From Synechococcus sp. RS9916 (GTDB taxonomy: Bacteria; Cyanobacteriota; Cyanobacteriia; PCC-6307; Cyanobiaceae), in contig NZ_DS022299.1 in assembly GCF_000153825.1 (NCBI RefSeq), forward strand, positions 2,349,707-2,413,706: a stretch of DNA of 64,000 nt, given 5' to 3'. The notes under the pieces were generated by a model, which had not been told where the DNA came from, ran no database searches, and was given only the letters and a program-made list of their open reading frames with translations. Made by a program: the position numbers and the translations under genes. Of this stretch, positions 6,001 to 55,944 are shown piece after piece. Position 1 is the first letter of the stretch. Every line of letters begins with the position of its first letter.

Positions 6001-9000
6001 CTGATTGAGCAAAGATGCCATAGGCGAAATCGCCATAAATATTATTTTCTCCATTCTCAACGTAATTAGTTCCAGTAAAAATATTTCCGCTATTCGTGAT
6101 CGTGACGTCTCCTGAATTCGCCCCGCTTGCTCCTTTACCGCCAACATTGGCCCCAACGTTGGCAGCTACACCACTCTCTGAAGCTGCTAATTGAGCATTG
6201 ATGACACGACCGCCGGATCCACCGCCACCGCCAAGTGACTGAGCATAAATACCGGCACTGTTATTGCCAATTGTTTTGATGACGCCAGAGTTTTTGATGC
6301 TGACATCGCCAGAGGTTCCGCCTTCTCCTCCATTCCCGCCAAGGCTTACGCCAACGTTGGCACCGACGGATCCACTGGTCGAAAGTGCACCCTGAATTGA
6401 TATAGCTTCTCCGCCTGAGCCGCCACCACCTCCAACCGACTGGGCATAGATGCCGTAAGAGTTGTTGCCGTAAAGAGCGGAAAGACGGTCGTCAGTGATT
6501 CCCGTCGTGATATCGGCTGTATTGCTGACGGTCACGTTGCCAGCGCTGCCTCCTTTCCCGCCGCCCCCGCCTAAGTTCACACCAGCGCTGACAGCATTGC
6601 CGCCACCTGCACCCTGCAAGTTCACGGTGCTGCCCCCTGCACCACCGCCGCCTCCGATGGATTGAGCTAGGAGTCCGGTAGAGAAATCTCCACGCGTTTT
6701 TATTGAACCACCCGTGTTGTCAATGCTCACATTTCCAGCCGTATTTCCTGATCCAGCTCCTCCGCCAATATTGACACCGGCGTTGACTGCCGCAGTTTTG
6801 CCGACGCTGACTTGTGCTGAAAGTGTGCTGCCACCATCTCCACCACCACCGCCGACCGATTGTGCATAAATGCCATACGCGTAATTACCTTTCAGCTCGT
6901 AACCCGTATCGTTAGATTTAATAGTGCCTGTTTCAATATTGGCGGCATTAATTACTTTCACATTGCCAGATGTTCCTCCGCTGCCACCTTTTCCCCCAAT
7001 ATTCGCAGCCATATTGACGGTTGCTGTTCCGCCGCCGCCTAGTTGAATGTTTGTAGCGCTTCCTCCCGAGCCACCGCTTCCTCCGAGTGACTGTACGTAG
7101 ATGCCTGCAGATGAATCACCGATGGTTTGAATCCTGCTGCCGGAGTTGGTGATGGTGACATTTCCAGCTGTTGCTCCCGCTCCAGCTGTTCCCCCAATTT
7201 GAGCGCCAGCATTAACTGCTGCACTGCCACCAAGAGAAAGGCTTCCTGATAATGAGTTGCCACCATTGCCTCCACTACCACCTACTGATTGGGCAAAGAT
7301 TGCAGCTGAGTTGCTACCGACTGTGCTCAGATTTGAGCTGTTGGTAACGGTGACATTTCCCCCTGATGACCCGGCACCGCCTGATCCACCAATGGTGGCA
7401 CCAAGGCTTACGGCACCTGTGCCACCGCCCTGGAGGGTCAAAGACATTGCTGACCCCCCGGTTCCACCACCACCGCCTAGGGACTGGGCAAAAATGGCTG
7501 AGGCATAGCTCTCGCCGAAGGTGCTAATTGATTCGCCTGATGAACTAACGGTTACATCGCCACCGGTACCTCCCGACTCTCCTTGCCCCCCAATTGTGGC
7601 TGCGGCATTGACGCCAGCAGTGCCACCCATGCCGACACTTCCACTAATGGAACTACCGCCACTTCCACCACCACCACCAAGCGATTGCGCAAAGATCCCA
7701 TAAGACAAGAATCCTTCGGTTTGAATTGAGCTGGCTGAATTCACAGTGACGGAACCAGCGCTTCCACCTCCGCCACCATTACCGCCAACTGCTGCTGTTG
7801 CAGTTACACCAGCGGTACCACCTATGCTCCCCTGAAGGCTGAATGTTCCTCCGCCTGAGCCGCCTCCACCGCCAATTGATTGAGCCAAGATGCCAGCGGA
7901 TTGGTCGCCTTTTGTGATGATTTGACCGCCTTTGGTGGTGACACTGACAGGACCTGAGTTTCCGCCCTTACCACCTTCGCCTCCGACACTGCCTCCGAGA
8001 GTGACACCAGCTGTTCCTCCTCCCCCCAATTGTGCGTTGACTGTTGATCCACCCTGGCCACCACCACCACCGACGGATTGAGCAAAGATGCCTTGTGACA
8101 GGTTGCCCAATGTCAGGATTTGATCTTCTGGTCTCAAATTGGCTGTAACGCTGACCGAACCGCCTTGTCCGCCTCCACCACCTTTTCCGCCAACAGCAAA
8201 GTTGGCGCTAACACCAGCAACACCACCTGCCGCAAGACTCATGGTTGTTGAGGATCCTCCAGCACCACCACCGCCACCAAGTGATTGAGCAAGGATGCCG
8301 GGGGAGTAGTCGACTGGGTTGTCTTTTGTGTTTGCGAGACCTGTCTGGATCGAACCGTCGCTGTAGCTGAGTTCCACGGAACGACCATCTCCCCCGCCCT
8401 CACCCTTGCCGCCTACTGCCACTGCTGACCCAATACTGGCGACTGGGTTGATGGACCCTGCTCCACTAACGGTTGAGCCGCCGGATCCACCACCACCACC
8501 AATGGATTGAATCAAGATTCCCGGTGAATATCCCCGGTTGGTGGTGATATTTCCCGAAATATCACCGATTGCTTGCCCCCCAGATCCGCCTGAAGCTCCA
8601 TCGCCACCAAGGCCCACGCTTGCTGATACACCAAGTGAGGCAGTCATTGATATCGTGCTGCCGCCTGCTCCACCACCTCCACCAATGCTGGTGATACTGA
8701 CGCCAGGTGAATTTTCAGCCTCTGTTGTAATGCTGCCCGAGAAGGTAGCTGAGGCTCTGTTGCCTTGACCCCCACCAGCTCCGCTACCACCAACTGATGT
8801 AGTTACGGCAATTCCCCCGGCAGCTGCGCCGGCAGCCGATCCACCTGAGCCACCACCACCACCGATGCTCACCACATTCAGTCCAGGAGATTGAAATCCC
8901 TTTGTCCTGATATTTCCAGCAGCCACGACATCTACAGTGCCTGCGTTTGCGCCTGTACCACCATCGCCTCCGACGTTGATAGAAACGCTAGCGACAGACG

Positions 9001-10864
9001 GTCCAGAAGCACTCTTTGTGCTGCCGCCTGATCCACCACCACCGCCAATACTTGTTGCAGTAATACCAGGCGAGTACTTTCCAGTTGTCGTGATATCTGC
9101 ATTGAAAGGATTACCACTTTCGCCAACTTTCACAGTGCCGCCTAAGCCCCCAGATCCACCTTTGCCCCCAATGGTCAAGTTCACACTGATCAATCCACCG
9201 CCACCGCCAGCGCTGTTTGCACTGCCGCCATTGCCACCGCCACCACCAATTGCTTGCACGAGTAGGCCAGGGGAGCTCACGCCGCTTGTGCTGATAGTGA
9301 CTGCGTCTGAACCCGTTGGTGAATTCACAACGGCGGTGCCGCCAACTCCACCTCCACCACCATCCCCACCAACAGCCACGCTGATATCGCCTGCGGAATT
9401 GGCGTCGCCACCATTGCCACCACCACCACCGATGGACTGCACAATCACACCAGGAGCGTAGTCCTGGAAAGTGGTGATAGATCCTTTGCTCAAGTTTGCG
9501 GTTGCTATGCCTCCGTTTCCACCTGGACCCCCTTTCGCGCCGAACGTGATGAAGCCAGAATTGGTACCTGCACTTCCGCCACCACCGCCAATGCTTTGAA
9601 CAAGAATTCCTGAAGAAAGTGATCCTTTCTCCTTTGATCCGGTGGTGATACTTCCTCCTGAGAAATTGATAGTCGCATTTCCGGCATTTCCACCAGCTCC
9701 TGCTTCTGATGAGGTCCCGAGGGTAATTGCAGAAATATTGCTGCCGATTGCACCACCACCACCACCGATGGATTGAACGATGATGCCTTGAGAATTGTTC
9801 CCGCTGGTATTAATCGTGCCTGCCGACATGGAGGCCTCTGCAGATGCCCCGTCACCGCCCTTACCACCTTTGGAACCTCCAAGGTTGGCTAGCGAAATTT
9901 GGCCTGGGACTGAACCACCACCACCACCAACGCTTTGGGCGTTGATGCCAGGCATATTGTCTCCGACTGTCGTAATTGAACCGCTATTGCTGGCCTGAAC
10001 ATTGCCGGCAGCTCCGCCCGAGCCACCAAGGCCGCCCCAGGTGACGATCACCCCCCCTGTTCCTGACTGACCACCCTGGCCACCAACAGATTGAACAAGG
10101 ATGCCGGCGCCGCCCGACCCGCCACTGTTGGACACGCTAATGGTGCCGGCATTGCTACCGGTTGCGAGGCCTGAAACGCCTCCAGTTCCTCCAGCTCCAC
10201 CTGAGCCGAAGGTCCCGCTACCTCCGTTGCCTGCCGTGCCACCTGTGTTTTGAGATAACACGCCAATGGCGGCAGCGTTGCCGCCGCCTGAGCGGTTTGT
10301 GACAGAGACAGTGGCACCATTTTGAATGGTGATGCTTGCTTTTTGGTTGACGGAGCTACCGCCTGCTCCACCTGGTCCTCCACTCGCCAGGCCTGCGCCT
10401 GCTCCGTCACCTCCCTCACCGGAGACGGCGGATGCTTGAACACCTGCAACAGTGCTATTGCTTGAAGTATTGATCGAGACAGAACCACCGCTGGAGAAGG
10501 TGACTTGAACATTGCCGGGGGAGCCTCCTGTGCCGCCGGCTCCACCGTTGCCAACCGAACCGCCACCGGTACCGCCCTTTCCACCAAAGGATTTTGACCC
10601 AACTTGTGAGCTATTCGACCCTGTAACGGTCTGGGTGATGTTGGGGCCTTGTCCTCCCGAGCCACCAGTGCGTCCCGTGGTACTCCATGGGTCGTAGTTT
10701 GGTTGCGAGCCTGTCTTGCCGGTGCCTTGGAGTAAGGGTTCCGATGGAGGTGAGTTGTAGGTCCCAGACGTGACGCCCGTCTGGGCAAGAACACTCGTCG
10801 TTCGTCCCGCCATCAAAAGGAAGGCGGGCAGAAGCGCTAGGGCTGACGAGGTCTTGCGGTTCAC
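1..10864 (-). CDS. Giant secreted glycine-rich repeat protein, N-terminal 3,621 codons (C-terminus outside window)
   Basis: One minus-strand frame is open without a stop from a GTG at 10864 to the window edge, so the gene is partial. The N-terminus is a good signal peptide: MNRKTSS, then a hydrophobic core ALALLPAFLLMAG, then a likely cut after VLA near residue 26. The protein is therefore probably exported. After about residue 60 it is almost entirely Gly, Ser, Ala, Asn and Thr, built from roughly fifty units of about 65-75 residues, each ending in a motif like QSIGGGGGxGG. Such SIGGGGG repeat arrays are known from very long autotransporter-like passenger proteins, which would suggest a cell-surface or extracellular filament or adhesin. 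The barrel or other secretion domain that would prove this lies beyond the window. No clear Shine-Dalgarno precedes the GTG. The many Pro- or Val-rich open frames on both strands here are its shadows. It could instead belong to a cyanobacterial S-layer or giant motility-type protein class. Confidence 0.85.
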   Translation of the reverse strand, partial: MNRKTSSALALLPAFLLMAGRTTSVLAQTGVTSGTYNSPPSEPLLQGTGKTGSQPNYDPWSTTGRTGGSGGQGPNITQTVTGSNSSQVGSKSFGGKGGTGGGSVGNGGAGGTGGSPGNVQVTFSSGGSVSINTSSNSTVAGVQASAVSGEGGDGAGAGLASGGPGGAGGSSVNQKASITIQNGATVSVTNRSGGGNAAAIGVLSQNTGGTAGNGGSGTFGSGGAGGTGGVSGLATGSNAGTISVSNSGGSGGAGILVQSVGGQGGQSGTGGVIVTWGGLGGSGGAAGNVQASNSGSITTVGDNMPGINAQSVGGGGGSVPGQISLANLGGSKGGKGGDGASAEASMSAGTINTSGNNSQGIIVQSIGGGGGAIGSNISAITLGTSSEAGAGGNAGNATINFSGGSITTGSKEKGSLSSGILVQSIGGGGGSAGTNSGFITFGAKGGPGGNGGIATANLSKGSITTFQDYAPGVIVQSIGGGGGNGGDANSAGDISVAVGGDGGGGGVGGTAVVNSPTGSDAVTISTSGVSSPGLLVQAIGGGGGNGGSANSAGGGGGLISVNLTIGGKGGSGGLGGTVKVGESGNPFNADITTTGKYSPGITATSIGGGGGSGGSTKSASGPSVASVSINVGGDGGTGANAGTVDVVAAGNIRTKGFQSPGLNVVSIGGGGGSGGSAAGAAAGGIAVTTSVGGSGAGGGQGNRASATFSGSITTEAENSPGVSITSIGGGGGAGGSTISMTASLGVSASVGLGGDGASGGSGGQAIGDISGNITTNRGYSPGILIQSIGGGGGSGGSTVSGAGSINPVASIGSAVAVGGKGEGGGDGRSVELSYSDGSIQTGLANTKDNPVDYSPGILAQSLGGGGGAGGSSTTMSLAAGGVAGVSANFAVGGKGGGGGQGGSVSVTANLRPEDQILTLGNLSQGIFAQSVGGGGGQGGSTVNAQLGGGGTAGVTLGGSVGGEGGKGGNSGPVSVTTKGGQIITKGDQSAGILAQSIGGGGGSGGGTFSLQGSIGGTAGVTATAAVGGNGGGGGSAGSVTVNSASSIQTEGFLSYGIFAQSLGGGGGSGGSSISGSVGMGGTAGVNAAATIGGQGESGGTGGDVTVSSSGESISTFGESYASAIFAQSLGGGGGTGGSAMSLTLQGGGTGAVSLGATIGGSGGAGSSGGNVTVTNSSNLSTVGSNSAAIFAQSVGGSGGNGGNSLSGSLSLGGSAAVNAGAQIGGTAGAGATAGNVTITNSGSRIQTIGDSSAGIYVQSLGGSGGSGGSATNIQLGGGGTATVNMAANIGGKGGSGGTSGNVKVINAANIETGTIKSNDTGYELKGNYAYGIYAQSVGGGGGDGGSTLSAQVSVGKTAAVNAGVNIGGGAGSGNTAGNVSIDNTGGSIKTRGDFSTGLLAQSIGGGGGAGGSTVNLQGAGGGNAVSAGVNLGGGGGKGGSAGNVTVSNTADITTGITDDRLSALYGNNSYGIYAQSVGGGGGSGGEAISIQGALSTSGSVGANVGVSLGGNGGEGGTSGDVSIKNSGVIKTIGNNSAGIYAQSLGGGGGSGGRVINAQLAASESGVAANVGANVGGKGASGANSGDVTITNSGNIFTGTNYVENGENNIYGDFAYGIFAQSVGGGGGAGGSTVNGQLGGSKKTAVNAAVSIGGTGGSGGSAGSVSVFNTAQTIQTFGNHASGIVAQSIGGGGGSGGSSLNLQGTVSTGKSVSVGGSVNLGGSGGAGSSGGNVTVTSSSDITTGYVDSNGNIISGDFSYGLLAQSVGGGGGTGGSSSSYAASISKEGSPVTLGANISGEGGEGGRSGNVLVNVSGKIKTHGDFAYGFFAQSIGGGGGAGGSSESLSATASLKGDKSIQGSAEVGLGGDGGSGGVAGNVTVNSDSTGNGLTITTFGELAKGFVAQSIGGGGGSGGASSSNSINKSKSKYTFGGGVNESGVGATGGNSGLVTVGTSASNPFELTILTIGNNSEGFLAQSVGGGGGTGGGASSENKGGSLSVTFALGAQGGAGGDAGNVIVNTLANIETRGANSRGFIAQSIGGGGGTGGSSVSQSDSSAPDQKSSDSKEKDSTFTLGVSLGTGGEGGGGGNAGDVNVGFGGSILTKGQASDGIYVQSVGGGGGIGGSTISKSSASGGGKFSGSLSVALGGDGGKGGDGGNVIFNALSPITVDTLKDSSTGITVQSLGGGGGNAGEVKSENTVTTKANSSFNFGASASVGGKGGGGGRGGSVSFGSATDIADLTIRTRGDNATGLFIQSLGGGGGIGSNTNNSSSGGNLSVAFGMGGRGGDGGDGGNVEMFTDGTFITTGHSSHGVLIQSIGGGGGAGGSVTSNASASASSANSNFAFGISVGVGGKGGGGGSAGDVSGSLSGSISTFGEASLGFKAQSVGGGGGAGGSVMDSASVSGNVSVAGSATFGFGGKGGGGGDGGAVSFLVPKPLKVTTQGTGAHGLLLQSIGGGGGAGGSIIGSNVTTSVSNSSFSFGGSGSSGGDAGGGGSAGSVSLGSAAQIADLQIQTQGDNAHAVFLQSIGGGGGAGGSVNNASSGGNLNASFSIGGTGGSGGSSSGVNFYADGTFITKGDTSYGVLLQSIGGGGGQGGSVTSNVAAGTGNKTANSSFTLGAVVGKGAIGGGGGRSGDINGSIAGSIATAGAGSIGFFAQSVGGGGGAGGSVTNSASAQGEAKFAASATLGMGGKGGKGGSSGSINFLVPKTLTIVTGGGTAANASSSMGSVGAAGAGAGSHGLLLQSIGGGGGSGGRVIGSNSATTTSNTSFSLGGGYTSGGDGGGGGSAGSVSLGRASQIADLQIQTQGDNAHAVFLQSLGGGGGAGGSVNNASAGGNLNASFAIGGTGGGGGNASGVNFYADGTFITKGDTSYGVLLQSIGGGGGQGGSVTSNVAAGTGNKTANSSFTLGAVVGKGAIGGGGGRSGDINGSISGNVATSGAGSIGFFAQSVGGGGGAGGSVTNSASAQGEAKFAASATFGMGGKGGKGGSSGSINFLVPDTLTIVTGGGTAANASSSMGSVGAAGAGAGSHGLLLQSIGGGGGSGGRVIGSNSATTTSNTSFSLGGGYTSGGDAGGGGSAGSVSLGRASQIADLQIQTQGDNAHAVFLQSIGGGGGAGGSVNNASAGGNLNASFAIGGTGGGGGNASGVNFYADGTFITKGDTSYGVLLQSIGGGGGQGGSVTSNVAAGTGNKTANSSFTLGAVVGEGAIGGGGGRSGDINGSISGNVATSGAGSIGFFAQSVGGGGGAGGSVTNSASAQGEAKFAASATFGMGGKGGDGGSSGSINFLVPDTLTIVTGGGTAANASSSMGSVGAAGAGAGSHGLLLQSIGGGGGSGGRVIGSNSATTTSNTSFSLGGGYTSGGDAGGGGSAGSVSLGSAAQIADLQIQTQGDNAHAVFLQSIGGGGGAGGSVNNASAGGNLNASFAIGGTGGGGGNASGVNFYADGTFITKGDTSYGVLLQSIGGGGGQGGSVTSNVAAGTGNKTANSSFTLGAVVGKGAIGGGGGSSGDINGSISGNVATSGAGSIGFFAQSVGGGGGAGGSVTNSASAQGEAKFAASATFGMGGKGGKGGSSGSINFLVPDTLTIVTGGGTAANASSSMGSVGAAGAGAGSHGLLLQS
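60..3400 (-). repeat. Near-identical 876-bp tandem repeats (292 residues each) inside the giant gene
   Basis: The same sequence recurs at exact 876-base steps; one anchor (start of a GATGAGGAGGCGTTAGCGGC block) lies at 62, 938, 1814 and 2690. Copies differ at only scattered bases. Each 292-residue unit is a higher-order repeat of four units averaging 73 residues, each ending with a QSIGGGGG-like motif. Copies are in frame. Similarity falls off sharply near 3400, although the same order of sub-units can still be traced in divergent form to about 4300. The array continues past the left window edge, so copy number is unknown. Confidence 0.9.
3400..10110 (-). repeat. Divergent 65-75-residue SIGGGGG sub-repeats
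   Basis: Beyond the near-identical array the protein keeps the same period. A glycine-run motif (QSIGGGGG, SVGGGGG, SISGGGG variants) returns about every 200 bases. Examples lie near 3705, 3915, 4520, 4940, 5370, 5800, 6235, 6655, 7085, 7480, 7875, 8280, 8690, 9050, 9430, 9770 and 10090. The units are clearly homologous but much more diverged from each other than the 876-bp copies, which suggests an older layer of duplication. Confidence 0.85.
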
Positions 10865-10883
10865 GACATTTTGCGACCAATAC

Positions 10884-51068: not shown

Positions 51069-52637
51069 TCAGGGAGTGGACTGCCCGCGCTGCCATTCTT
51101 TCCAGGCCAGGCGTGGTGCGGTCCAAAGCGTCACCAGCACCAGTGGGGTCACGGGTACAGCGGCAATCACGATGAACGCTTGCAGCGCATTGATGGATGT
51201 TGGATCGGTGAGGCTGGTGCCGATGCGCAACAACACCAAGGTGAGTGTCCCGATCATCAAGGCCCAGAACAGCCGGAGGGGTGCAGGCGGCTCGTTTCTG
51301 CTGCTGACAACCATCGCGGCGGCGTAGCTCATGGAGTCGGCGCTGGTGCACATAAACAGGACCACCAGAACCAATCCGATTGGAATCAGAAGCCAAGACA
51401 GGGGCAGACCACCAAGGATGGTGAGCAATGTGGACGCTGCGGCATTGATCCCGTCGGTCTCTAAGGCACCAGTGATGTCTGCTCCGTTCAGATCGAGATA
51501 CATGCCGGTGCCACCAACCAGGGTGAACCAGAGGTTGGTAACCAGTGGGCAGAGGATGGCGACCGCCAGCACCAGTTCCCTGATGCTCCGACCGCGACTC
51601 ACCCCTGCAGTGAAAAGACCCATCAAGGGGGCATAGCCCAAAAACCAGCCCCAGTAGAAGACGGTCCACCAATCGAGCCAGATACCTGTCTCCTTCGTGC
51701 GAGGTAACAGGGCCATTTGGGGTAGGTGGGTGATGTAGGTGACAAGACCACCGAAGAAATGCTGGATCAACCAAATCCCTGGTCCGAGTAGTAAGAGACC
51801 AGCGGCCAGGGCAATGGTCAGCCAGACGTTGAGTTCAGACAGCCATTTGATTCCTTTTTGAATTCCACTGACTGTGGATATGGCAAACACAGTCGTTAGC
51901 AGTACGACAACGAGGGATTGAAGTCCCGCGCTGTTGGTCATCCCAGGTAGTTGTCCTGCAGCATCACTGAGTTGGAGGGAGAGGAATCCCAATGGACCAA
52001 CTGTTCCTGCGATTGCGGCAACAACTGAAAGCCCGTCTGCAATGTCGCCGATGGGTCCATCCACCCAGCTGTGGGGCAGCACATTGACAAGAAGGGTTCG
52101 AGGGCGAAGTGGCTCACCCTTCTTTTCCAAGATTGAGAACGTGATGGTGGTCGTTGTGGCGACAAGGGCCCAGGCCAGAAATCCCCAGTGCAAAAAACTC
52201 ACGGCGAGAGCTGGATCCACCGCCGCCGCTGTTTTTCCTTTCACACCCATCACTTCAAAGACAGGTGACGGTTCGATGAAGTGAAAAAGCGGTTCTGCCG
52301 CTGACCAAAACACACCACCGCCGGCGAGCAGAGTGCAGATCAAGACCGCACACCAATCGAACATTTTCAGGCTCGGTTTGGCGTCGTTGCCGCCAAGTCG
52401 CACTTTGCCGACGGGACTTAAGGCGATCACAATCGCAACCACGAAGAGCAGCGCCACCATCCACTGCCAAATTCCGCCGAGAAGGCTTCCGATGATGGCT
52501 TTCCCTTCGCTGGTGAAGTCTTTGGCCAGATTGAGATCAATGGCGGCTAAAACAAGGAAGGCCAGCAGTGGTCCAGCACCGACCCAAAGCGGTGGTTGCT
52601 TCCACCAAGGACGAGGATTGGAAGGGGATCCGGACAT
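51069..52637 (-). CDS. BCCT-family betaine/choline/carnitine-type transporter
   Basis: 522 residues with about twelve membrane spans. Typical BCCT motifs: GGVFWSAAEPLFHF, DWWTVFYWGWFLGYAPLMGL (the Trp-rich substrate-binding helix) and SRGRSIRELVLAV. Members move quaternary-ammonium compounds such as glycine betaine, usually with Na+ or H+. It is the last gene of a four-gene minus-strand operon (SABATH methyltransferase, dehydrogenase, flavin oxidase, transporter), 30 bp after the oxidase. That context suggests transport of the compound made or used by the enzymes. Confidence 0.9.
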   Translation of the reverse strand: MSGSPSNPRPWWKQPPLWVGAGPLLAFLVLAAIDLNLAKDFTSEGKAIIGSLLGGIWQWMVALLFVVAIVIALSPVGKVRLGGNDAKPSLKMFDWCAVLICTLLAGGGVFWSAAEPLFHFIEPSPVFEVMGVKGKTAAAVDPALAVSFLHWGFLAWALVATTTTITFSILEKKGEPLRPRTLLVNVLPHSWVDGPIGDIADGLSVVAAIAGTVGPLGFLSLQLSDAAGQLPGMTNSAGLQSLVVVLLTTVFAISTVSGIQKGIKWLSELNVWLTIALAAGLLLLGPGIWLIQHFFGGLVTYITHLPQMALLPRTKETGIWLDWWTVFYWGWFLGYAPLMGLFTAGVSRGRSIRELVLAVAILCPLVTNLWFTLVGGTGMYLDLNGADITGALETDGINAAASTLLTILGGLPLSWLLIPIGLVLVVLFMCTSADSMSYAAAMVVSSRNEPPAPLRLFWALMIGTLTLVLLRIGTSLTDPTSINALQAFIVIAAVPVTPLVLVTLWTAPRLAWKEWQRGQSTP

Positions 52638-52667
52638 AACGTCTTTTCTGACAGCAGTTTTTTGATT

Positions 52668-53855
52668 TCAGGCACGCACTGCTGGACGCTTGTGGCTCCA
52701 GCAGCTCAGATTGACGCCTGGCTGTTCACCACAGGCCAGACGGGCCAGAGAGTCTCCGATCAGCGGAGCAAATTTGAAGGATTGCCCTGACCCGCCACAA
52801 AACAGGCTCAACTGCGGTGTGATCCGATCGAGCACGAAGTTCACATCGCTGGTCATCGAGTAAGGACTGATGACGGTCTCAACCCGTTCTTGAACGCCTT
52901 CGAGTTCGTTGAAGAGGAAGGTGTCGAGCAGTTCCACCAAGCGAGCCGGTGGTTCGCTAACCATGGCGTTGGGCTCAGCAACCCGCAGGTCTTTGGGAGC
53001 CCAGTCGATCCCGCATTTGATGCGGGGGCGACCATCGCTGGTGGTGCTTAAGACGGGGAAGCCGTAGTAGAGCCCGCCGTCATCGCCTCGTTCTTGCTGG
53101 AAGCAGAACCACTGGGGATAGCGATCCGCCAGGGCTGGATCGACGGTGTAGTGGGCCCAAAGCATGGGCCATACCTCCAGTTTTGGTGCGAGGCCCAGGG
53201 GGGCAAGCAGCAGCTGACTCCAGATCCCGCAGGCCACCACCAGTTGATCAGCGGCGATGTGATGCCCGTTCTCGAGGGTGACGCCCCCACCATCCGCATC
53301 CAGTTGTTGAACGCTGGTGTGCTCAATCAGCTGGTGTCCTGCGTTGCGGGCAGAACGGATCCAGTGGGCCACCACCTTGTCGCTGCGCACCGCTCCGGCG
53401 GTGGGTTCGAACAGGCCGGTGAAGTCAGCCTTGGGTTTGAGGGGGAAACGGTCTGCGATCTGCTCGGCATTCAGCGCTTCGTAGGGAATGCCTTGGTCGT
53501 CCATCACACGCCGGGCGCCTGGAATCGACCCTTCGATCGTTTCTTCATCCCAGCTTTCGCCGTAGAAGAGCAACCCATGGGTCTCGCGCAGCTGTTCCCC
53601 GGCCTGGCTTTCTTCCTCCCGCCAAAGGCGATTCGCCTCCTGGGCAAGACGGCACAACACGGGATCGGAATACATTTCCCGGAACATCCGGGTCTCTCCG
53701 TAGCTGCTGGCCCCGGCGTGGGCCAGGGTGCGTGCTTCCAGCAACACCACATCGGAAACGCCGCGTTTGGCCAGGGCCGCTGCGCAGCTGAGGCCTGCCA
53801 TGCCTCCGCCCACGATCACGACGCGGGCATGGGTGGGGAGTGATGAAGAAGTCAT
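52668..53855 (-). CDS. FAD-dependent amino-acid oxidase, monomeric sarcosine oxidase/pipecolate oxidase-like
   Basis: 395 residues. Dinucleotide motif VVIVGGGMAGLSCAAALAKR (about 12-31), SYGETRMFREMYSDPVL, and the covalent-flavin-type region FCGGSGQSFKFAPLIGDSLA near the C-terminus, without an evident flavin-linking Cys there. The family oxidises secondary or N-methyl amines (sarcosine, N-methyltryptophan, pipecolate). Start overlaps the stop of the dehydrogenase (ATGA), so translation is coupled. Confidence 0.85.
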   Translation of the reverse strand: MTSSSLPTHARVVIVGGGMAGLSCAAALAKRGVSDVVLLEARTLAHAGASSYGETRMFREMYSDPVLCRLAQEANRLWREEESQAGEQLRETHGLLFYGESWDEETIEGSIPGARRVMDDQGIPYEALNAEQIADRFPLKPKADFTGLFEPTAGAVRSDKVVAHWIRSARNAGHQLIEHTSVQQLDADGGGVTLENGHHIAADQLVVACGIWSQLLLAPLGLAPKLEVWPMLWAHYTVDPALADRYPQWFCFQQERGDDGGLYYGFPVLSTTSDGRPRIKCGIDWAPKDLRVAEPNAMVSEPPARLVELLDTFLFNELEGVQERVETVISPYSMTSDVNFVLDRITPQLSLFCGGSGQSFKFAPLIGDSLARLACGEQPGVNLSCWSHKRPAVRA

Positions 53856-54907
53856 GACGCGTCGTTGAAGCTCAGGCCAATGGGGTCCGTTCCGCTATCT
53901 GCGGCAACACTGTCGAGGGCATCGCCCACGGAGACGCCTTCGTGGCGTTGCGTGAGGTACTCGTTGGCTCTGCTGCGGACTTCCTTGCGCACGAAGGCGT
54001 ACACGTCATCGGCTTGCGCGGTGCGCCAGGCATCGGGCGAGAAGCGTTCAATCGAGTCAGCGATCACCGCTCCCGCATTGACCAACGGGTCGGGGAGTAC
54101 AGGAATGTTCCGGGCTCGCAGCGTTTCAGCCAACTGCGGGTCTTGGAAGGGGGCGTTCGCGGCTGGCACCACGGCTTTGGTGCGCAGGGCCTTCGTCATC
54201 GAGGCATCCAGCAATCCAGAGATCGAACAGGGCAGCAGCAAGTCCACATCCACCTCCCACCACGGGCAGTCCTCCGGCAGCGGTGTTGCCCCTTTGAAGC
54301 CAGCCCGTTCACGGCTGAGGTCAACGGTGAAGACGGTCCAACCGTGATCCGCCAATGTGCGCGCCACGGTGCCTCCCACGGCACCGCAGCCGTGCACCAA
54401 GGCGCGGCCAGGCTCGGCATCAGCCAGGTCATGGCCCAGCACAGCTTCCACAGCGCCCAGGGTGCCGTGGGCTGTTGCGGCACTGGCATCGACCGGACTG
54501 CCCACTGCTGCCAGCACGTGGGGAGTTAACGCCGTAAGGCGTTCCATGTCTTCGAGGCTGGTGTTCAGATCACAGCCGGTGATCATGGCCCCATCAAGGG
54601 ACTCCAGCAGTTCGGCGGTGACGCTGATCAGCTCGTCTTTGACGGCTTCTGGATCTGCCGCGCGGGCCACGATTTTGCCGCCGGCAAACCCGGTGCCGTA
54701 GAGGTCATGTTTGTGGGTCATCAACCCAGCCAGACGCTGACCATCGGCAATGCAGGCTGCATCGCTTGGGTAGTTGAGCAACCGCAGGCCGCCGTTGGCC
54801 GGCCGTTTGGCGTCGGTGTCTTCTCCGACGACGAACACGGACAAGTGTTCGGAGACGTGCTCAGCCAGCACCGACACCGCCGGCGTGGAGGCGTGTGTTG
54901 ATGTCAT
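53852..54907 (-). CDS. Leu/Phe/Val-dehydrogenase-family amino acid dehydrogenase
   Basis: 351 residues from ATG 54907 (MTSTHASTPAVSVLAEHVSE). ELFV dehydrogenase signature aligned by eye: MTHKHDLYGTGFAGGKIVA keeps the catalytic Lys pair, GCDLNTSLEDM the Asp segment, and GRALVHGCGAVGGTVARTLA the NAD(P) motif (G-x-G-x-x-G). It would interconvert an amino acid and a 2-oxo acid plus ammonia, or act on a cyclic imine. Shares TGATG overlap with the upstream SABATH gene, so the pair is translationally coupled. Which amino acid it uses is unknown. Confidence 0.8.
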   Translation of the reverse strand: MTSTHASTPAVSVLAEHVSEHLSVFVVGEDTDAKRPANGGLRLLNYPSDAACIADGQRLAGLMTHKHDLYGTGFAGGKIVARAADPEAVKDELISVTAELLESLDGAMITGCDLNTSLEDMERLTALTPHVLAAVGSPVDASAATAHGTLGAVEAVLGHDLADAEPGRALVHGCGAVGGTVARTLADHGWTVFTVDLSRERAGFKGATPLPEDCPWWEVDVDLLLPCSISGLLDASMTKALRTKAVVPAANAPFQDPQLAETLRARNIPVLPDPLVNAGAVIADSIERFSPDAWRTAQADDVYAFVRKEVRSRANEYLTQRHEGVSVGDALDSVAADSGTDPIGLSFNDAS

Positions 54908-55944
54908 CAGGCGACCCGTTCCATCATCTGGTGGTGTTCGACGTAATCGAGACTCCACTCACTGGGCGCATCGGCGATGCGTTGTTCGAGCCGTTGGTAG
55001 ACCGTGTCCGCAGCCTGGTCTCCGGCGGAACTGGCGAAGCTGTGGCGGCTCCAGCTGCGGATGGTGGCCATCAGCCCCGCTGCGAACGTGGCTGTATTGC
55101 CGTCCTCATCCCAGCGACGGCGATAGGGACACTTCACATACACCGTGCGTTCATCGACCAGTCGCAGGCCGTTGCGATAGGCCGGCGAATCGCTGTCCTT
55201 CAGCGGCGCCATGAACTCTGACGGCGACTTGTAGAAGTTATTCACCGTGCCGTTGCGGTATTGCTCCTCGCTGATCAGCCCCTCATCGGCCATGCCGCGC
55301 CAAATCTGGTGCAGCTGGTCGTGCACGTTGCGGGTTTCACCGCCGTTGTGACCGAGGTAAAGGCCCTGTTCATCCCGTGACAGATTCACAGTGAGCAGGC
55401 GTCCGCCCACCTGCAGCTCGCGGCTGCGCAGCTCAAGGATGTGATTCCAGTCCTTCATGGCCTGCGCGGTGAAGCGCTCCAGCGCCTCTGCGTCGTTGGA
55501 GGCCAACACGTGGGTGTGCGTGTTGAGCGGCCCAGGTGAGGCACTCAGCCAGTGCATGGCCGTGGCGGAAAAGCCAAAACTGACCGTGCCAGGAGCCACC
55601 GATGGCTCATAGAAGCTGCGGGCACTCACCAGAACCGTCGGTTTCGGCGCTCGAGGGATCTGCAGGGCCAGGTTCTCCGCCAGGGCGACGTTGTCGTTGC
55701 TCGGCAGGTCATTGCCGATCAGCGTCAGATGGGCATCGGGCTGATTGGCATGCAGGCGGTCCAGCACCTGATGCCAGAGCCCAACGGCAGTACCGCCGTC
55801 GGCGGCGCCGTAATCAATCAACACGTGGCTGCTTTGGGCAGCCAGGTTGTCCACACAAGTCAAGGCCCAGTCGGAGGCGGCTTCAATGCAGAGCAGAGCG
55901 CCTTCGGTCTGTGCGCTGTAACCCGTGGTCATGGCGATGGCCAT
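54907..55944 (-). CDS. SABATH-family methyltransferase
   Basis: 345 residues from ATG 55944; ATG 55932 is possible. SABATH (plant carboxyl/N-methyltransferase-like) features: IDYGAADGGTAVGLWHQV near residue 42 as the SAM motif, SARSFYEPSVAPGTVSFGFS, and SATAMHWLSASPGPLN near 128. SABATH enzymes methylate small carboxylic acids or ring nitrogens. First gene of the operon with the dehydrogenase, oxidase and BCCT transporter. Bacterial members are few, so transfer or marine-specific use is worth noting. Confidence 0.8.
   Translation of the reverse strand: MAIAMTTGYSAQTEGALLCIEAASDWALTCVDNLAAQSSHVLIDYGAADGGTAVGLWHQVLDRLHANQPDAHLTLIGNDLPSNDNVALAENLALQIPRAPKPTVLVSARSFYEPSVAPGTVSFGFSATAMHWLSASPGPLNTHTHVLASNDAEALERFTAQAMKDWNHILELRSRELQVGGRLLTVNLSRDEQGLYLGHNGGETRNVHDQLHQIWRGMADEGLISEEQYRNGTVNNFYKSPSEFMAPLKDSDSPAYRNGLRLVDERTVYVKCPYRRRWDEDGNTATFAAGLMATIRSWSRHSFASSAGDQAADTVYQRLEQRIADAPSEWSLDYVEHHQMMERVA

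Follow-up and report, generated by a model that had tools for sequence, protein, structure and literature searches.

In this study, we analyzed a 64,000-nucleotide stretch of DNA from Synechococcus sp. RS9916 (the window, hereafter), focusing on a four-gene operon that encodes a SABATH-family S-adenosylmethionine methyltransferase, an amino acid dehydrogenase, a flavin amine oxidase and a BCCT-family transporter. On the basis of our results, this operon probably makes homarine (N-methylpicolinate) from lysine and handles it with its own carrier, all of the catalytic steps being predictions from sequence. This view is based on the likeness of the oxidase to NikD, the side-chain pocket of the dehydrogenase, the SABATH precedent of the trigonelline synthases, the presence of the operon in Synechococcus WH7803, the co-occurrence of the genes, the existence of an enzyme core and the altered aromatic box of the transporter. 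The first four of these lines support the proposal of homarine and a lysine-derived ring that had been made, as a speculation, in a preliminary description of this DNA. What was established directly is that the four genes form a linked and conserved unit, to which families their proteins belong and which residues these conserve, and that one strain in which homarine has been measured carries the operon.

The minus strand carries all four genes, the methyltransferase first and then the dehydrogenase, the oxidase and the transporter. The methyltransferase (54907..55944; 345 amino acids (aa); PF03492), a proposed picolinate N-methyltransferase (homarine synthase), overlaps by one base with the dehydrogenase (53852..54907; 351 aa; PF00208/PF02812), whose ATG at 54907 begins on the last base of the methyltransferase stop (TGATG). 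This Glu/Leu/Phe/Val (ELFV) dehydrogenase, which may be an NAD-dependent L-lysine 2-dehydrogenase (cyclizing), in turn shares four bases (ATGA) with the NikD-like flavin amine oxidase (52668..53855; 395 aa; PF01266), a candidate picolinate-forming piperideine-2-carboxylate oxidase. Following a 30-bp spacer is the BCCT transporter with its non-canonical aromatic box (51069..52637; 522 aa; PF02028), a putative homarine/betaine carrier. The open reading frame coordinates thus bear out the layout given in the preliminary description (one strand, overlaps of 1–4 bases and a 30-bp gap), and its SABATH, amino acid dehydrogenase and BCCT assignments were confirmed by a Pfam search, in which all four proteins exceeded the curated cut-offs. 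None of the NCBIfam models scored above its cut-off for any of the four proteins; the closest ones, all far below cut-off, were those for tryptophan dehydrogenase ScyB, N-methyltryptophan oxidase and BCCT.

In the proposed pathway, the dehydrogenase would use NAD+ to remove the alpha-amino group of L-lysine, and the resulting keto acid would cyclise spontaneously to delta1-piperideine-2-carboxylate. This ring would then be oxidised by four electrons to picolinate by the NikD-like oxidase, and the SABATH methyltransferase would methylate the ring nitrogen of picolinate with S-adenosylmethionine to give homarine. Finally, the transporter would take up or retrieve a compatible solute, either homarine or a zwitterion like it.

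The oxidase (E-value of 4.9e-46 against PF01266, DAO) had its top match among solved structures in NikD (2oln; 2.8e-36, and 1.6e-39 with the family profile), followed by bacterial sarcosine oxidase (4.1e-35) and MSOX (1.2e-29); the corresponding bit scores were 139, 124.5 and 106.5. Residues were compared in a multiple alignment whose register was anchored by 3hzl, whose sequence has a residue other than that of NikD at the aligned Tyr258 position. Two residues that we take to be important in NikD are kept in the operon oxidase: Glu101 (Glu108 in the oxidase), which sits in a short insertion that none of six sarcosine oxidases in the comparison has, and Asp276 (Asp284), which is His or Phe in those six enzymes. 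Arg53, Tyr258 and Lys358 of NikD, which are common to MSOX, are also present. The residues shared with NikD were invariant down to 51–53% identity in Prochlorococcus-sized genomes. It has been reported that NikD oxidises piperideine-2-carboxylate, derived from lysine, to picolinate (PMC4021061). Assignment as MSOX itself was rejected: the columns of Cys315, His269 and His345 read Ser, Asp and Gln, and TIGR01377 gave 143.8 bits against a cut-off of 479.65. The L-pipecolate oxidase AmaA was rejected as well (NF050086; a weak score of 34.5 bits, cut-off 600). Thus, NikD-like describes the oxidase better than the pipecolate-oxidase part of the earlier label 'sarcosine/pipecolate-oxidase-like'.

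The dehydrogenase matched PF00208 (1.2e-15) and PF02812 (1.9e-6), and its closest solved enzymes were leucine (7vid being the nearest), tryptophan and phenylalanine dehydrogenases. It keeps the catalytic residues K66, K78 and D113, equivalent to K68, K80 and D115 of leucine dehydrogenase. In the substrate pocket, however, L40 and V294 of leucine dehydrogenase are replaced by Asn38 and Asp284, and both replacements were invariant in all operon members, including those from Prochlorococcus-sized genomes. These columns were read after aligning the family with five solved sequences by MAFFT L-INS-i, which places the Asp at V294 without a gap; HMMER placed a two-residue gap in the helix after NAGG in some cases, and the ungapped MAFFT register was used. 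Leu40 and Val294 set side-chain specificity and separate leucine from glutamate dehydrogenases, which have Lys89 and Ser380 there (PMC2723916), and the lining of the side-chain pocket by these positions has been confirmed (PMC8766677). The polar Asn and acidic Asp would suit a substrate with a positively charged side chain, such as lysine, which would call for an acidic end of the pocket. A function as leucine dehydrogenase was rejected with the loss of the hydrophobic Leu40/Val294 pocket, and the ScyB model gave only 96.6 bits (cut-off 600). A lone homologue of the dehydrogenase (∼61% identical, with the same Asn/Asp pocket) was observed in a 2.9-Mb relative (G060; L127:9949-11073, minus strand), with neither the methyltransferase nor the oxidase beside it.

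The methyltransferase belongs to SABATH (PF03492; E-value 8.7e-22, 78.2 bits, cut-off 29.8), and its best solved relatives were the fatty acid O-methyltransferase 5f2k and the salicylate carboxyl methyltransferase 1m6e. Its orthologs were 80–93% identical to the protein in the window. The coffee trigonelline synthases CTgS1 and CTgS2 are SABATH enzymes that N-methylate nicotinate, an isomer of picolinate (PMC8877179). By analogy, the operon enzyme may be a pyridine carboxylate N-methyltransferase, for which the family offers a precedent, the choice between N- and O-methylation going beyond sequence alone. SABATH homologs with 28–29% identity were also seen in ∼725-codon frames of two large-genome cyanobacteria (L098 ∼8885-9898 and L099 ∼9933-10868), perhaps as fused proteins. 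It should be noted that the AlphaFold models of the methyltransferase and the dehydrogenase were of low confidence (mean pLDDT of 55.6 and 70.1, respectively) because the alignments were shallow and contained close relatives only, and no claim is based on them.

The transporter is a clear BCCT member (PF02028; E-value 1.1e-124, 417.1 bits, cut-off 27) and the only one in the genome of the window; the score against the equivalog model was 286 (cut-off 650). A solved trimethylamine transporter has the aromatic motifs HWGLHAWGIY and FYWAWWIAWSP, and four carriers from cyanobacterial betaine clusters have similar ones, whereas all 12 operon members compared read HWGFLAWALV and FYWGWFLGYAP. The aromatic box is not intact in the operon carrier, with Val and Phe at positions Tyr197 and Trp374 (BetP numbering), which points to a substrate different from glycine betaine. 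A genome survey lists a choline/betaine uptake gene, BetT/betP (PMC9361551), and this is likely the operon gene, which is the only BCCT gene detected in almost all of the genomes concerned.

Homarine ranks with the abundant osmolytes in particles of the surface ocean. A study of 2021 (PMC8269262), whose authors called homarine pathways uncharacterised, tested Synechococcus WH8102 and WH7803 and measured homarine in both. This study and its companion paper of the same year (PMC8269247) stated that genetic information on homarine synthesis was lacking. Homarine degraders and their catabolism were reported in 2026, in a paper cited by PMC13390433. We found no report of homarine biosynthesis genes in the open literature searched, and such a report may exist elsewhere, for example in that catabolism paper. 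Agreement between the operon and homarine-containing strains, the check put forward in the preliminary description, was seen for one strain: the measured producer WH7803 carries the operon (locus L061).

Further investigation of related genomes revealed that the four genes are together and in the same order in 20 out of 20 loci compared, one with a split methyltransferase gene and one truncated inside the transporter gene. Of 19 loci in which the overlaps were measured, most again showed those of 1 and 4 bases, and the encoded proteins were 70–93% identical to those of the window, all of which argues against a chance grouping. In most of the 20 loci, one flank of the operon consisted of SIMPL and carotenoid oxygenase genes and the other of RdgB and phosphosugar mutase genes. 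A search of 149 related genomes found the methyltransferase in 34 genomes of the family to which the window belongs, and only remote SABATH homologs in two further genomes; among the same 149, the methyltransferase, the full-length oxidase and the transporter shared the same set of Cyanobiaceae genomes. All 24 complete genomes of the genus of the window had the methyltransferase (the sole miss was a genome that is 58% complete), as did 70 of 400 Cyanobiaceae genomes.

Four 1.7-Mb Prochlorococcus-sized genomes (G411, G643, G725 and G709; a subset of genus g18), two of which we take to be Prochlorococcus MIT9515 and MIT9215, contain the three enzyme genes without the transporter. The genes in these loci (L126, L133, L134 and L135) are intact, keep the operon order and encode proteins with 50–55% identity. 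Thus, the three enzymes form the functional core, and the transporter gene is an accessory addition to it. In G505 (L137), all four genes were located outside the usual RdgB/SIMPL context and its congener G039 had no operon, suggesting transfer as a unit. Three loci had a broken gene with the other operon genes matched full length, in each case possibly as a result of a sequencing error: the methyltransferase has a 4-base deletion in L136:9190-10240 (a genome that is presumably CC9902) and a 1-base deletion in L054:2990-4040 (G030), and the oxidase has a frameshift near residue 54 in L139:4960-6160 (G371). The first two are candidates for natural methyltransferase loss. No relatives of the methyltransferase were found in viral contigs or phages, and three plasmid matches were obtained, including one on a conjugative plasmid of Rhizobium sp. 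CB3171, in which a SABATH gene (32% identical) adjoins a DadA-like FAD oxidase gene (L130:11803-14339), with an apparent B12-type radical SAM gene upstream. This pair was rejected as a second copy of the operon, since tblastn did not match its DadA-like oxidase to that of the operon.

Several observations weigh against homarine synthesis from lysine. The published assumption is that homarine originates from tryptophan/quinolinate; quinolinate is the origin assumed by the group that measured homarine in Synechococcus. Moreover, corrected homarine levels were ∼18 mM in WH8102 and ∼0.2 mM in WH7803 (PMC10134881), that is, ∼100-fold lower in WH7803 despite its operon, and it is from relatives that we infer an operon in the strong producer WH8102. 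The methyltransferase is remote from all solved SABATH members, most of which are O-methyltransferases. At the aligned positions, the oxidase is ∼32% identical to NikD and 36% identical to a sarcosine oxidase. In addition, Trp355 of NikD is replaced by Gln358, and the flavin-linking Cys321 by Ser330 (this position was first aligned with Val, and the multiple alignment placed Ser330 there); both replacements are invariant. The flavin is therefore probably held without a covalent link, and the chemistry of the enzyme may differ from that of NikD. Because Trp355 and Cys321 are missing, we call it NikD-like rather than NikD.

Some of these points leave room for other products. An oxidase without Trp355 and the covalent site could stop after two electrons, in which case the product might be a partly oxidised ring or an N-methyl or N,N-dimethyl derivative of pipecolate, whose betaines are plant osmolytes. 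However, the four-gene unit contains no pipecolate-forming reductase, the oxidase keeps Glu101 and Asp276 of NikD, and it is homarine itself that was measured in WH7803, so we consider such a product unlikely. It is even less probable that the methyltransferase forms a methyl ester, such as methyl picolinate, as a signal or volatile. Its best solved relatives are indeed O-methyltransferases, but SABATH also contains nicotinate N-methyltransferases, the BCCT partner points to a zwitterion with a permanent charge, and homarine is known in these cells; we know of no report of methyl picolinate. Since only distant homology and a small number of pocket residues underlie the deduced specificities, the route could start from another amino acid and lead to an unrelated methylated metabolite; the chance of this appears very small, given that independent hints from three enzymes all point to the same compound, which the host is known to contain.

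A different direction, namely the degradation of a methylated amine, had been offered as the alternative in the preliminary description: the transporter would import the amine, and the oxidase and dehydrogenase would break it down for nitrogen. BCCT carriers are often importers, sarcosine oxidases of the MSOX family are demethylating enzymes, and BCCT and MSOX genes adjoin in four other cyanobacterial genomes (L102–L105). However, those four loci are recognisable betaine-degrading sets, with the canonical FAD-binding Cys of MSOX, a Rieske oxygenase and, in three of them, a large FAD enzyme of the dimethylglycine-dehydrogenase type. The operon contains neither of these demethylases, its oxidase lacks the His and Cys of MSOX, and an S-adenosylmethionine-consuming methyltransferase as the first gene fits no obvious role in degradation. 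The four Prochlorococcus-sized genomes kept the three enzymes without the carrier, which also speaks against import for breakdown. Degradation is therefore improbable.

Homarine synthesis from lysine thus remains the preferred explanation. The component families are known, whereas their combination and the pathway appear to be new. We consider the chances somewhat better than even that the operon encodes the first genetic route to homarine from any organism, that is, a three-enzyme pathway from lysine, not from tryptophan/quinolinate, in marine Synechococcus and some Prochlorococcus, with a dedicated carrier in Synechococcus. If true, it would provide named genes for a direct test of homarine biosynthesis and make a lysine versus a quinolinate origin testable. 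The three genes could serve as a marker to reveal in metagenomes and metatranscriptomes which organisms make homarine and when, and producers could be matched to the homarine degraders of the 2026 report. The choline/betaine uptake label of the surveyed transporter would also be corrected.

Comparison with known systems shows likeness and difference for each component. The betaine-degrading clusters of large-genome cyanobacteria also have a BCCT gene beside an MSOX-family oxidase gene, but their MSOX lacks the NikD insertion, and no SABATH or ELFV gene was seen in them. Glycine betaine carriers such as BetP and OpuD belong to the same family as the operon carrier, which differs from them in both aromatic-box motifs. 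Leucine and tryptophan dehydrogenases (7vid, 5b37 and ScyB) share the ELFV family and the catalytic Lys68, Lys80 and Asp115 with the operon dehydrogenase, which differs by the invariant Asn (at L40) and Asp (at V294). CTgS1 and CTgS2 are S-adenosylmethionine-dependent SABATH enzymes like the operon methyltransferase and N-methylate a pyridine carboxylate; they are plant enzymes acting on nicotinate (a 3-carboxylate), and the bacterial enzyme is distant from them. The nikkomycin branch of Streptomyces, with the lysine 2-aminotransferase NikC and NikD, follows the same sequence from lysine through piperideine-2-carboxylate to picolinate (PMC4021061). NikD is related to the operon oxidase and has the Glu101 and Asp276 positions in common with it, whereas Trp355 and the covalent flavin Cys of NikD are missing from the operon oxidase. 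The first step of the nikkomycin branch is carried out by an aminotransferase, whereas the proposed route would use an ELFV dehydrogenase, and picolinate is activated there to picolinate-CoA, whereas in the operon route it would be N-methylated.

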